A stretch of 64,000 nt of DNA, taken from assembly GCF_027622855.1 (NCBI RefSeq), contig NZ_JAPZVR010000006.1, positions 62,001 to 126,000 on the forward strand, given 5' to 3'. Source of the stretch: Glycomyces algeriensis. GTDB taxonomy: Bacteria; Actinomycetota; Actinomycetes; Mycobacteriales; Micromonosporaceae. Below are positions 18,735-60,847 of this stretch, piece after piece; within the stretch, counting starts at the first letter, position 1, and the number at the start of each line of letters is the position of its first letter. The notes beneath the pieces were generated by a model that saw nothing but the letters and a program-made list of their open reading frames with translations, searched no databases and was not told the origin of the DNA. The translations under genes and the position numbers were made by a program.

Positions 18735-18911
18735 GGCGCTAGGGCCTGTCCTGTGCATCAGGGAGCGGCGGTATCCGAGTCCATTCGCTCGCTCGCAAGA
18801 CGGAGGGGCGGCTGCATACCGGTGTTGTATGCAGCGGCCCCGACAACGCAGCGAGCGGGCGAATGGGCCGGATAACGACCGGTCTGATGCACAGGACAGG
18901 CCCTAGGCGCC
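18735..18911. repeat. nested-hairpin element, copy A
   Basis: Long imperfect palindrome. The outer arms are 22 bp perfect (18739-18760 with 18885-18906), extended to 18735/18911 with one bulge. A middle stem pairs CCATTCGCTCGCTCGC (18781-18796) with its near complement (about 18851-18866). An inner hairpin has CTGCATAC / GTATGCAG around loop CGGTGTT. The core 18769-18874 is about 88% identical to that of copy B at 59025-59187. The right end covers the stop codon of the ROK gene. Confidence 0.85.
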
Positions 18912-20147
18912 CAGCGGCGTGGGCATGCGCCCGGCGTCGATGTCGTTGAGGATGCCGGTGGCCGCGCCCAGGGCAGGGGCCTCGTGCCCGAGGGCCGAGA
19001 CCACGATCTCGGCGCCTCCGGCCCCGGAGGCGTGCGTGCGGGCGGCGAGCTCGCGTTCGGCCGCAGGGCCGATCCAGGGGCTCAGCGCCTGGTAGTGGCC
19101 GCCGAGGACCACTGCTTCGGGGTTGAGCAGGTCGACGGCGAGCGCGATGCCGGCGCCGAGCGAGCGCCCGATGCGCTCCAGGGCCTCGAGCACGCGCGGC
19201 TCTTCGGCGCGGGCGCGGGTGACCACGTCCTCCACCTCGGCCTCGACCTCGGCCCCGGCGATGTCCTCCGATTCGGACAGCGTCTTGAGGACGGCGCTGA
19301 TGCCCGCGAGGTCCTCGACACGGCCGACACTGCCGTCCACGTCGATGAGGAGGTTGCCGATTTCGCCGGCGAAACCCGTTGCGCCCCTGCGCAGTTCACC
19401 GTCCACGATGAGGCCGGCGCCGAGGCCGATCTCACCGGTCAGGTAGATCATGTTGGACACCCCGGCCCAGGAGCCGAAGCGCTGCTCGGCCACGGCGCCG
19501 AGGTTGGCGTCGTTGTCGGCGGTCACGGCGTACTTGGGGTCGCGCATGGCCTGGCGCAGGCGGCCGGTGAGGTCGAAGTCCTCCCAGCCGAGCATCGGGG
19601 CGCGCTGGACGACGCCCCCGTTGTCGATCAGGCCCGGGACGGCGACGGCGAGCCCGAGGATCTGGCGGCCCTCGGCGTCCATCTTGTCGACGGCGCGCTT
19701 GGCGAGGCCCGCGAGGGCGGAGACGGAGCGCCCGGGGGTCGACCCGGCACCGTCGTGGGCGCGGCGCCAGGACAGGAGCCGGTTGCCCGCCAAGTCGACC
19801 GCGACGAGCGTCATGTAGTCCACATTGACTTCCACGCCGAGCGAGGCGTAGTAGCCGGTGTCGACGCTGAGCAGTACTGCGGGGCGGCCGATGTTGCCGA
19901 TGACCGAGCCCGACTCGCGCAGCACGCGCCGTTCGATGAGCTCGGCCACGAGCGAGGAGACCGTGGCCTTGTTGAGGCCGGTCTTCGCGGCGAGATCCGC
20001 ACGGGAGCAGCGCCCTTCGGCGCGCACCTGGCGCAGCACGAAGCCCAGGTTGTTGGCCCGCACGTCGGTGAAGTCGGCGCGCTTGGCCCGGCCCCGCGCC
20101 TCCTCGCCGACAGCCCCGGCCGACTTCGACGCTATGCGCATCGCCAT
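18903..20147 (-). CDS. ROK family (XylR-like) transcriptional repressor
   Basis: 414 residues. The N-terminal winged HTH (LRQVRAEGRCSRADLAAKTGL, then NKATVSSLVAELIE) is joined to a ROK sugar-kinase-like domain with GRPAVLLSVD, VAVPGLID and TADNDANLGA. The usual ROK zinc motif (CxCGxxGC) is absent; that position reads IDVDGSVGRVEDL. ATG 20147 follows AGGAGGAACAC. It is divergent from the sugar ABC operon, and a TTAGTT-N13-AACTAA operator lies between them, closely resembling known XylR-type operators. A matching site lies before GH31-xylB-xylA. Xylose or a xyloside is the likely inducer. Its stop codon lies within repeat element A. Confidence 0.92.
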   Translation of the reverse strand: MAMRIASKSAGAVGEEARGRAKRADFTDVRANNLGFVLRQVRAEGRCSRADLAAKTGLNKATVSSLVAELIERRVLRESGSVIGNIGRPAVLLSVDTGYYASLGVEVNVDYMTLVAVDLAGNRLLSWRRAHDGAGSTPGRSVSALAGLAKRAVDKMDAEGRQILGLAVAVPGLIDNGGVVQRAPMLGWEDFDLTGRLRQAMRDPKYAVTADNDANLGAVAEQRFGSWAGVSNMIYLTGEIGLGAGLIVDGELRRGATGFAGEIGNLLIDVDGSVGRVEDLAGISAVLKTLSESEDIAGAEVEAEVEDVVTRARAEEPRVLEALERIGRSLGAGIALAVDLLNPEAVVLGGHYQALSPWIGPAAERELAARTHASGAGGAEIVVSALGHEAPALGAATGILNDIDAGRMPTPLGA

Positions 20148-20297
20148 GTGTTCCTCCTGTGCATGTCCCGGCTCATTCTGATAGATCGCGACAACCGGTC
20201 CTCGGGCGGTCCCTGACCGTTGCGCAGCGAAGCGTTTCACCACAAGGGCCGTTCCCGAATCGTGATCAATCCGCGCCCGTATCGCCTGACCCCCGGC

Positions 20298-58937: not shown

Positions 58938-59024
58938 CTTTGGAGTTTAGGACGGTGTCCGGAGCTCGAGCAGCGTGGCTCCGGACACCGCCTCAACACA
59001 CCTTTCGGGTGCGGCCGATAGCGG

Positions 59025-59187
59025 AGGGGGTGTTGGCGGGCCCCGGGCGAGTCGGTATCCGAGTCCGTTCGCTTGCTCGCAAGGCGGAAGGGGCTCTGAA
59101 TACCGGTGTTGTATTCAGAGGTCCGACAACGCAGCGAGCGGGCGAACGGGCCGGATAGCGGCCGCCTGGGGCCCGCCAGGGCCCCCT
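59025..59187. repeat. nested-hairpin element, copy B
   Basis: Outer arms TGGCGGGCCCC... pair with ...GGGGCCCGCCA over ~15 bp plus AGGGGG/CCCCCT. The middle stem CCGTTCGCTTGCTCGC pairs with its wobble complement. The inner hairpin is CTCTGAATAC / GTATTCAGAG around loop CGGTGTT. The core 59053-59157 is about 88% identical to the core of copy A at 18769-18874, with compensatory changes in the stems. Its right half encodes the last ~24 residues of the XRE regulator. Confidence 0.85.
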
Positions 59188-60425
59188 AAGTTGAGGGCGC
59201 CGACCTCCTCCGCGAGGCGGCGCAGGTCCTGGGCGGGTTCGCCCTTCGTGCGGTGCAGGATCTGGTCGATGAGCTCGATCGCGACCGGGCGGCACCGGAC
59301 CTCGGCCGGGGCGTGGCGGTCGGCCGTCACCAGGTGGCGGCTCGCCCGTTCCATGTCCCCCACCTGGACGCACGCCCGCGTCATGTCGAGGTGGTGGTGC
59401 GCGCGCCGCTCGGCCACGAGGTCGGCCAGCGCGGCGGGCGGGATGCGGTCGTGGACGGCGAGGGCGTCGCTGCCTTCGCCGAGTTCGACGAACGCGGCGG
59501 CGCGGTGGAGCAGGACGTTGGTCGGTCCGAAGGACGTGTAGTAGTAGTTGGCGTCGCGGCCGAGGATGTTGGCGGCGCGGGAGGCGCTGTCGAGCAGGTC
59601 CTCGCTGGTGGTGCTGTCGCCGGCGAGTGCGGCGGCCATGGCGCCTTGGAGCAGGAGCGCGCCGTAGACGCTGATCTGCGCGGGTGTGGAGTTCTCGCCG
59701 CCGGTCTCGGAGATGAGGCCGTGGGCGACTTGGACGTTGAGGTCGAGTGCGGCCTGGTGGCGTCCGAGTGCCCTGAGCGCGTTGGAGACCCGGGTCGTGG
59801 CGATGCCGGCGAGGAGCGGGTCGTTGCCGCGGTTGGCGGCGGAGATGGCGCGGTCGGCGGCGAGCCAGGCGAGCTGGGCCTCCCCGAGTTTGCGCAGGAC
59901 GGTGGAGGCGATCTGGTAGACCTGCGTCATGAGTTCGGCGGCGTCGGCGCTGGTGCCGCCGACGGGCCGGTCCTCGGCGACGGGCGTGTCGCGCAGGAGC
60001 TGGATGAGGGAGCGGGCGACGACCGGGTAGTGGCCTTTCTCGAAGGCGAGCCAGCAGTAGTTGACGGATCCGCGGAGTTCGGGGATCGGGGTGGATTCGA
60101 TCGGGGCGGCTTCGAGGAAGCGGCCGAGTCGTTCGTAGCGTTCGAGGGACTGGCGGATGGATTCGACCTCGACCTGGTCGAGGCAGCCGCCGAGTCCGGG
60201 CCGGCGTTTGGGTTCGCGGCCGAGCAGCTGCCCGGCATCGATGCTGAGGGCTTCGGCGAGTTCGGTGATGACCGAGTACTTGTCGAGGCGGCGGACGCCG
60301 CGTTCGATCTTGTCGACCCAGCTCTTGGACTTGCCGATGCGGTCGGCGAAGACCTGCTGGGACATGCCTCGGCGTTGTCGCCAGTAGGCGACGCGCCGCC
60401 CCATGGGTTGCGTTTCGGACTCCAT
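59115..60425 (-). CDS. XRE-family regulator with TPR-like C-terminus
   Basis: 436 residues from ATG 60425; a TATAGA box lies 14 bp upstream. The N-terminal Cro/C1-type HTH (WRQRRGMSQQVFADRIGKSKSWVDKIERG, about 10-60) is followed by helical repeats to ~400. The last ~24 residues (from GGPGGPQAAAI to the stop) are encoded by repeat element B and look unlike family sequence, so the element has replaced or extended the original end, which probably lay near VGALNL. It is divergent from the small membrane protein gene, whose start is covered by a palindrome it may bind. Confidence 0.85.
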   Translation of the reverse strand: MESETQPMGRRVAYWRQRRGMSQQVFADRIGKSKSWVDKIERGVRRLDKYSVITELAEALSIDAGQLLGREPKRRPGLGGCLDQVEVESIRQSLERYERLGRFLEAAPIESTPIPELRGSVNYCWLAFEKGHYPVVARSLIQLLRDTPVAEDRPVGGTSADAAELMTQVYQIASTVLRKLGEAQLAWLAADRAISAANRGNDPLLAGIATTRVSNALRALGRHQAALDLNVQVAHGLISETGGENSTPAQISVYGALLLQGAMAAALAGDSTTSEDLLDSASRAANILGRDANYYYTSFGPTNVLLHRAAAFVELGEGSDALAVHDRIPPAALADLVAERRAHHHLDMTRACVQVGDMERASRHLVTADRHAPAEVRCRPVAIELIDQILHRTKGEPAQDLRRLAEEVGALNLGGPGGPQAAAIRPVRPLAALSDL

Positions 60426-60847
60426 GTCAGACCCCACCGTCTATAGGAGTTGGTGTGCGGATTGTCGTGTCGTGCGGTGCAATGCGGTTGTGGCGGCCGT
60501 TCCTCCGGCCATGAGTCACGGCCGCCGTGTCGGAGCGCTGCGGGCGGTCGTCAGCTGTGCTCGGTTGTCTTGACCCCGCACGTCCGGTCCTCTTGGAGCG
60601 GTGCTCTGTGGAGGCTCGGGTTTGTCGCCTTTGGCGTTCCGACACTAACTGTTTACCGTCTTTTCCCTTCCGGCACAACGGCCGCCAGCTGCCAAGATGA
60701 CGCTGCGCTTGAAGCCGCTTACAGTCTTGCTCGGTCGCGGCGGTCACTAGCCGGTTATCTGGGGTTATGCCGGGTTTCGGTCGCCCGAACGCGGGAAATC
60801 TGCACATGCAACGTGTCGATTCAAGGGCCTGCATCGTTGTGTCAGAT
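60426..60847. other. divergent intergenic region, XRE gene / small membrane protein gene
   Basis: 422 bp, less G+C-rich than the surroundings. It holds TATAGA (60440-60445, minus strand) as the -10 for the XRE gene and, at its far end, the 8-bp-arm palindrome at 60836-60859. The remaining ~350 bp show no conserved RNA, repeat or convincing ORF, so the stretch could hide an unrecognised small RNA or unseen promoter. Confidence 0.4.

Follow-up and report, generated by a model that had tools for sequence, protein, structure and literature searches.

We examined a window of 64,000 nucleotides from Glycomyces algeriensis (the whole stretch of DNA analysed), in which a first-pass annotation had reported two nested-hairpin elements, here copies A and B. 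Both lie where it had placed them, and their ends were refined to the exact limits of Table 1, which were set from the TA duplication and the arms. On its right side copy A meets a ROK-family gene (18903-20243, minus strand): the right terminal inverted repeat (TIR) and the next base together read CTAG, which supplies the TAG stop of that gene. Copy B adjoins an HTH gene (59115-60437, minus strand) that extends about 25 codons into the element, and in a relative (L155) the same HTH frame stops with a TAG at the insertion site. A separate hairpin (GGTGTCCGGAGC..GCTCCGGACACC, 58954-58989) was also found upstream of copy B; in two relatives (L157 in G007 and L158 in G005) an element stands instead at the TTTAG just before this hairpin.

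The two copies share a core, as the first-pass annotation had stated, and its size, estimated there at about 105 bp with about 13 differences, was measured as 113 alignment columns with 14 substitutions and one gap. The compensated changes that it had described are present as well: a C-G pair becomes A-T and a G-C pair becomes T-A in the inner hairpin, and an A-T pair becomes G-C in the middle stem. The predicted fold of copy A had a free energy of -131.1 kcal/mol (z = -16.1 against 200 dinucleotide shuffles), and that of copy B, computed on the segment 59026-59190, two bases off the element, -137.5 kcal/mol (z = -14.2).

Table 1. Limits and parts of the two element copies in the window.
Feature	Position	Strand	Remarks
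Copy A, whole element	18740..18905	+	166 bp with both copies of the duplicated TA; CTAG site
Copy A, left TIR	18740..18761	+	TAGGGCCTGTCCTGTGCATCAG; 22/22 complementary to right end
Copy A, core common to copy B	18769..18881	+	113 columns
Copy A, internal loop, left strand	18795..18804	+	GCAAGACGGA; family consensus GCAAGGCGGA
Copy A, inner hairpin	18805..18841	+	stem 18805-18819, loop CGGTGTT 18820-18826, stem 18827-18841
Copy A, internal loop, right strand	18842..18849	+	GACAACGC
Copy A, right TIR	18884..18905	+	pairs with left end
Copy B, whole element	59024..59188	+	165 bp; right TA intact, left TA decayed to GA
Copy B, left TIR	59024..59045	+	GAGGGGGTGTTGGCGGGCCCCG; 17/22 complementary to right end
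Copy B, core	59053..59164	+	
Copy B, internal loop, left strand	59079..59088	+	GCAAGGCGGA
Copy B, inner hairpin	59090..59122	+	loop CGGTGTT 59104-59110
Copy B, internal loop, right strand	59125..59132	+	GACAACGC
Copy B, right TIR	59167..59188	+	

The core of copy A had at least 54 matches in its own genome, which were grouped at E <= 0.002 (40 of 55 candidates scored) as at least 36 loci, two of them in the window. Among 61 genomes, comprising relatives and its own, 25 contained a match, in 5 of 38 genera. According to blastn, 109 of the 120 loci that we examined contain the core and 11 do not. Ends were delimited for 75 copies with a full-length core; these were 159-190 bp long, with 70 of them at 163-169 bp, and their 22-base arms paired at 13-22 positions (at least 19 in 63 of the 75 copies). 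The layout of the element was TA-(G...C)-TA. Comparison of the flanks of 109 copies returned four pairs with shared flanks, apart from a duplicate locus and a partial match of 98 bp. The elements thus combine the traits by which MITEs are recognised, namely TIRs, a TA target-site duplication and multiple copies at unrelated places, and the outer arms are MITE TIRs. Copies A and B are very probably MITEs, gene-less, TA-duplicating and bounded by TIRs, with a folded core under selection, and would belong to a superfamily of the Actinomycetes.

Several loci carried other versions of the element. One that is longer by about 32 bases (..TGCCGATTGACGGCTCGCAAGCTTCGCCGAGACCGC..) at the left side of the internal loop was found at L015, L018, L020, L021-L024, L131 and L157, and a still longer one at L058 (251 bp). 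A perfect palindrome of 52 bp, built only from type 1 ends plus GGGAGC and lacking the core, occupies positions 282-333 of L040 (G000:C31:308281-308332, outside the window), and similar core-less palindromes are present in L054, L056 and L057. Finally, L012, L049 and L052 have runs of G/C beside or inside the elements, with N in two of them, which look like assembly damage at strong hairpins.

For eight sites the two flanks were joined through a single TA and searched for in 22 genomes of the genus; among the matches listed, many run on without a break and so represent empty sites. The junctions were aligned for L005 in four species and for L006 in two. For copy A, base-by-base alignment showed that G015 and G005 lack the element and read ..GCTAGG.. 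without interruption, and the empty site of copy B was aligned in G015 with a junction differing by one base. CTAG is present in the empty sites of copy A, L005 and copy B, while the L006 site has diverged. In the 40 of 75 elements with TA at both ends, the target sites were CTAG (24), TTAA (7), CTAA (7) and others (2). CTAG is itself rare in the window (23 observed, 174 expected from base composition); 7 of the 23 lie at stops of the 33 called genes, and the edges of copy A are among the 23.

The search for DUF4096 transposases in the genus led to 30 loci, which were read for TIRs. One of them, L061 from a congener, is a 910-bp insertion sequence of IS5-like type with TAGGGCCTGTCCTGTGAAT at both ends, and 18 of the first 19 bases of the left TIR of copy A are identical to its TIR. 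The exact 19 bases of the L061 ends start 6 of the 75 delimited copies, and 21 of the 53 ends listed for the genus under a looser pattern. L062 is a relative of L061. The right end of L073 is TAGGGCGTGTTTGAGAA, its left TA being decayed, and the end of L077 is TAGGGCGCGTTTGAGAA; both closely resemble another frequent arm type (TAGGGGGTGTTTGAGAAGTCC), with which, as with these two insertion sequences, the left TIR of copy B agrees at the tip only. Against NCBIfam IS5_3 (NF033580, cut-off 110 bits) the L073 transposase scored 251.7 bits and the L062 frame 166.9 bits, and both match Pfam DUF4096 and DDE_Tnp_1 (L062 just below the DDE_Tnp_1 cut-off), while the L061 transposase was assigned by its DUF4096 match only. 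It counts against the partner link that 26 of the 30 DUF4096 loci had other TIRs or none detectable.

In the own genome we found no pair of type 1 ends at the distance of an insertion sequence with one pattern, TAGGGSSTGTYY, whose 34 matches there were ends of copies or of the 52-bp mini-palindrome (31) or single (3); as judged by this one pattern, the partner may be lost there or may deviate from the pattern. The first-pass annotation had noticed no transposase nearby, and tblastn with two IS5 transposases as the queries agreed, with no IS5-type transposase beside the elements in 186 loci (0.61 Mb, a set without the DUF4096 loci L061-L090 and the empty-site loci L151-L162). Nor was the core seen by eye inside a full-length insertion sequence among those examined. 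In Streptomyces-like genomes, the ends of the element (AAGGGCTGTCCCGTAA) turn up again next to transposases whose closest model is NCBIfam IS5_4 (NF033581): two loci start with TAAGGGCTGTCCCGTAAATGATC and a third with TAAGGGCTGTCCCGTAACTGC, and a transposase frame follows. The proteins of L268 and L267 were nearest to IS5_4 at 127.9 and 94.1, thus below the cut-off of 140, and match DDE_Tnp_4 and HTH_Tnp_4. By their sequences, these candidate partners, for which just one insertion sequence end was found, are of a different subgroup from the Glycomyces partners. The outer arms had initially been described as self-complementary and left anonymous; the former holds in both copies, and the latter no longer does, as they are TIRs of a MITE, of IS5-family type in copy A.

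The arms change far more than the core. Arm positions 12-21 were 90% paired within a copy and 41% paired when the left arm was set against the right arm of another copy. Mean identity between copies was 0.40 in the arm and 0.81 in the core (all 2346 pairs), and eight pairs of copies had cores 94-96% identical with arms 0-50% identical. This turnover is not complete: near-identical cores keep mostly shared arms, and 6 pairs with cores at least 0.97 identical, each within one genome, share 0.83 of their arm bases. Four sites were occupied in two species (the L114/L128 pair, with offset flanks, was excluded from this comparison), with flanks 82-96%, inner parts 80-88% and arms 59-86% identical. 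Two of these four, L021/L037 and L030/L125, carry the elements in opposite orientation at the same site, which suggests that the palindrome was inverted or that one TA was hit more than once. At such shared sites the arms may have changed in place or through re-insertion of an element.

We then considered the pairing over the whole set of copies. Alignment A2, made with MAFFT without using the structure, contained 69 copies; the other six of the 75 were dropped because of their odd limits. RNAalifold predicted 56 pairs on it, 38 of which were changed on both sides. In this structure 97.0% of the cells were paired and 673 were doubly changed, with a covariation score of 0.482, compared with 79.8%, 189 (sd 15) and 0.155 in shuffled alignments, none of which scored as high (0 of 500). 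The further copies and their covariation strongly support the selection on structure that the first-pass annotation had proposed. Sliding the partner by 1-3 columns left at most 125 doubly changed cells. Relatedness of the copies inflates the A2 counts and is retained in the slid control, which a structure derived from the same alignment nevertheless tends to beat.

Covariance-model searches, of the kind that had been proposed, gave matches in the family, the order and the class. Model R1, built on the inner 73 positions of 35 sequences, matched 111 of 300 family genomes (19 of 44 genera). Model R2, rebuilt with 41 matches, matched 72 of 397 order genomes (27 of 85 genera) and 66 of 394 class genomes (24 of 138 genera). 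All these counts are at E <= 1e-4, with rough E-values, the best 16 or 12 candidates scored per genome and overlapping family, order and class samples. Named matches included Glycomyces, Stackebrandtia and one metagenome-assembled Mycobacteriaceae bin. A Streptomyces-type core was recovered by blastn at 75 places in 39 Streptomyces plasmid records, most of them without an annotated feature at that position in a gene table that is incomplete; a large Streptomyces plasmid (NZ_CP108509.1) repeats the core at 10 places. Chromosomes of Micromonospora and Streptomyces are probably among the hosts. One exact pattern had no match in viral contigs, and one Streptomyces-type core had none in phage records.

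In the core that is found over this range, covarying stems flank an asymmetric internal loop (GCAAGGCGGAGG / CGACAACGC) that is nearly invariant. When 57 cores were aligned to R2, the strands GCAAGG-CGGAGG and CGACAACGC proved almost invariant, and the helices outside and inside the loop varied with compensation (score 0.512, compared with 0.149 in shuffles, 0 of 500 as high). This alignment was fitted to the R2 model and leans towards it. Alignments A4, in which the weak row L144:109-180 was retained, and A5 follow the structure of the model. One genus has the variants GCAAGGCCGAGG with CTCGAACGC, which, from their sequence, look like a further compensated change from G-C to C-G within the motif. 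The first-pass annotation had read the elements as selected for structure and not for sequence: the covariation bears out the first half, and the second fails at the internal loop, where sequence is nearly invariant while the stems vary. A pseudoknot between the apical and the internal loop (GTTG with CAAC) was rejected on inspection by eye, as almost no linker would have to span the inner stem of about 12 bp and the pairing is lost in L059. Readings as a kink-turn or as attC were also rejected, since the conserved bases do not fit the consensus sequences known for them.

The stems also differ between the strands. Among the stem cells that are not Watson-Crick pairs, G.T outnumbered A.C by 94 to 32; the ratio was 57:19 in 30 copies under 85% identity (binomial p 1.5e-5) and 40:11 in a wide set. 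Counted as distinct pair types it was 34:22 (p = 0.14); related copies therefore account for part of the polarity signal. Three further pairs were almost always T.G (187 of 207 cells). The plus strand folded better than the minus strand in 68 of 69 copies with RNA parameters (by 18.1 kcal/mol on average) and in 69 of 69 with DNA parameters (by 8.8 kcal/mol). We infer selection on the folded plus strand, because a DNA palindrome perfected by repair shows no such difference between its strands. What is selected seems to be a single strand, always the same one, in its folded form, and the G.U excess and the strand-specific stability of the modelled folds make RNA likelier than single-stranded DNA.

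The pairing might arise without any function of the fold if the arms match as transposase sites and the inner palindrome is perfected by template switching (quasi-palindrome correction). As TIRs the outer arms must match anyway, and they stay paired within each copy despite their variation between copies. L059 (G010:C16) has its inner hairpin turned round compared with the other copies, with the apical loop reading the other way, and this may show palindrome-mediated rearrangement, as may the two inverted species pairs. Correction, however, would erase the near-fixed T.G pairs and the asymmetric invariant loop, and between arms it explains neither the excess of G.T over A.C nor the strand preference; we regard this account as unlikely.

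Alternatively, the strand that folds could be DNA: it would arise during replication or transfer and serve as a protein recognition site, like the ends of IS200/IS605 or the attC sites of integrons. The plus strand does fold better with DNA parameters too, and conservation of a structure with bulges resembles single-stranded DNA sites. The TIRs, the TA duplication and the IS5-family partners instead point to double-strand transposition of the DDE type, which leaves a DNA strand with a low probability, similar to that of pairing without function.

The order and class searches added 36 loci, two of them in Glycomyces. At 29 of the 34 distant loci (27 of 31, and 2 of 3 for L256, L263 and L264) at least 15 of 18 arm pairs were formed at a length of 160-175 bp, in arms that lie outside the covariance model, and shifted positions in the same loci passed in 1 of 124 cases (3 of 124 without the length condition). 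L231, L252, L254, L258 and L264 failed this test; L256 and L263 have TIRs. The distant ends differ widely (e.g. TAAGGGCTGTCCCGTAAT, TAGTGCTGTGGCCGGAAAGG, TAGTGCTCCGTAATACCGG and TAGGGCGTGTCTGATGGAT), and near-constant length goes with very different TIRs. In a further account the hairpin would be a small-RNA gene or regulatory hairpin of the host and not mobile at all. Some genomes have a single match, the loop between the covarying stems is deeply conserved, and L252, L254, L258 and L264 have no clear TIR, none being found in L264 on inspection. Shared flanks were found for one pair among 19 loci, mostly from genomes with few matches, in a test that sees sites within a genus only. Together with the unrelated sites, TA duplications and empty sites of the Glycomyces copies, this makes a host RNA gene very improbable.

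The elements are found preferentially at the 3' ends of genes, with 28 copies between convergent and 10 between divergent genes, counts that rest on gene calls from a simple codon model. Between codirectional neighbours 24 copies were in plus and 37 in minus sense; there was thus no plus-strand bias relative to the flanking genes, and neighbours do not preferentially transcribe the plus strand. At their edge, 34 of 108 copies supply a flanking gene with its TAG stop. Just inside the TA the element begins with G in 51 of 53 cases, which is why insertion into a TAG stop restores the stop. That the elements are long intrinsic terminators of the neighbouring genes, as their clustering at gene 3' ends would allow, is refuted as their origin by the empty sites, which lack the entire hairpin between otherwise the same flanks, and is further opposed by the rarity of the CTAG target, so that we give it next to no credence, while a terminator effect may follow insertion.

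Under the preferred reading, in which the copies are MITEs with a selected folded core, each element of about 166 bp would fold end to end as one nested hairpin, and its TIR tips could be used in trans by resident IS5-family transposases. The limits, the duplication, the empty sites and the site preference indicate insertion at TA, mostly within CTAG, with duplication of the TA, and the leading G together with the preference for CTAG would render insertion at TAG stops nearly harmless. The arms appear to turn over, the two ends of a copy matching each other and often not those of other copies, and their matched change would fit borrowing from different IS5-family elements over time. Our best guess is that the folded plus strand, more likely RNA than single-stranded DNA, binds a conserved factor that aids persistence or movement; a binding site for such a factor fits best because the internal loop is invariant.

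We tentatively extend this to a structured RNA module no younger than its spread over the Actinomycete families, which may keep its length of about 166 bp while its IS5-family TIRs are replaceable, and whose mobility or maintenance may depend on the RNA; we find this possible, though we would not count on it. Lineages, and even single copies, would then be re-dressed in the TIRs of different IS5-family transposases, and the invariant internal loop of the plus strand would recruit a conserved factor from the host or from the transposase side.

Structured MITEs are already a known kind. PMC2229807 describes ERIC, Correia/NEMIS and RUP as such elements of enterobacteria, Neisseria and S. pneumoniae, which at 100-200 bp lack a transposase, have TIRs and TA ends and give transcripts folding as one long stem-loop. 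The present elements are set apart from these descriptions by a class-wide core, TIRs that differ in matched pairs and a nearly invariant internal loop. With IS5-family insertion sequences, the likely source of transposase, they have the TIR tips and the TA target in common; unlike these they carry no transposase, and their core was not seen in the insertion sequences examined. REP sequences of the REP/RAYT system are also hairpin repeats, with a proposed role in termination, and differ in being 20-40 bp long with a tag at one end (PMC3733652), whereas the window copies are of 165-166 bp with TIRs and a TA duplication. The main text of PMC3733652 does not name Streptomyces, Frankia, Micromonospora, Salinispora, Actinobacteria or Stackebrandtia. 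Rfam 15 had no match at the gathering score in the window and two far below it around copy A, and the open-access full-text literature, with subscription papers and ISfinder outside its scope, yielded no description of the family; the earlier remark that no known family fits holds so far. What is new here is the class-wide core, the nearly invariant loop, the polarity of one strand and the ends that change in matched pairs.

Small structured MITEs are usually known as repeats that occur in a few genera and have one pair of ends. In the present family one folded core can be traced over much of a bacterial class, including Streptomyces and probably Micromonospora, while its ends change in matched pairs. 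Annotators would gain a name for hairpins that mostly lack a listed feature in the plasmid records examined. If the core acts as RNA, the success of a DNA transposon would be tied to a structured RNA, and the family would add a new RNA motif together with a system in which to test it.
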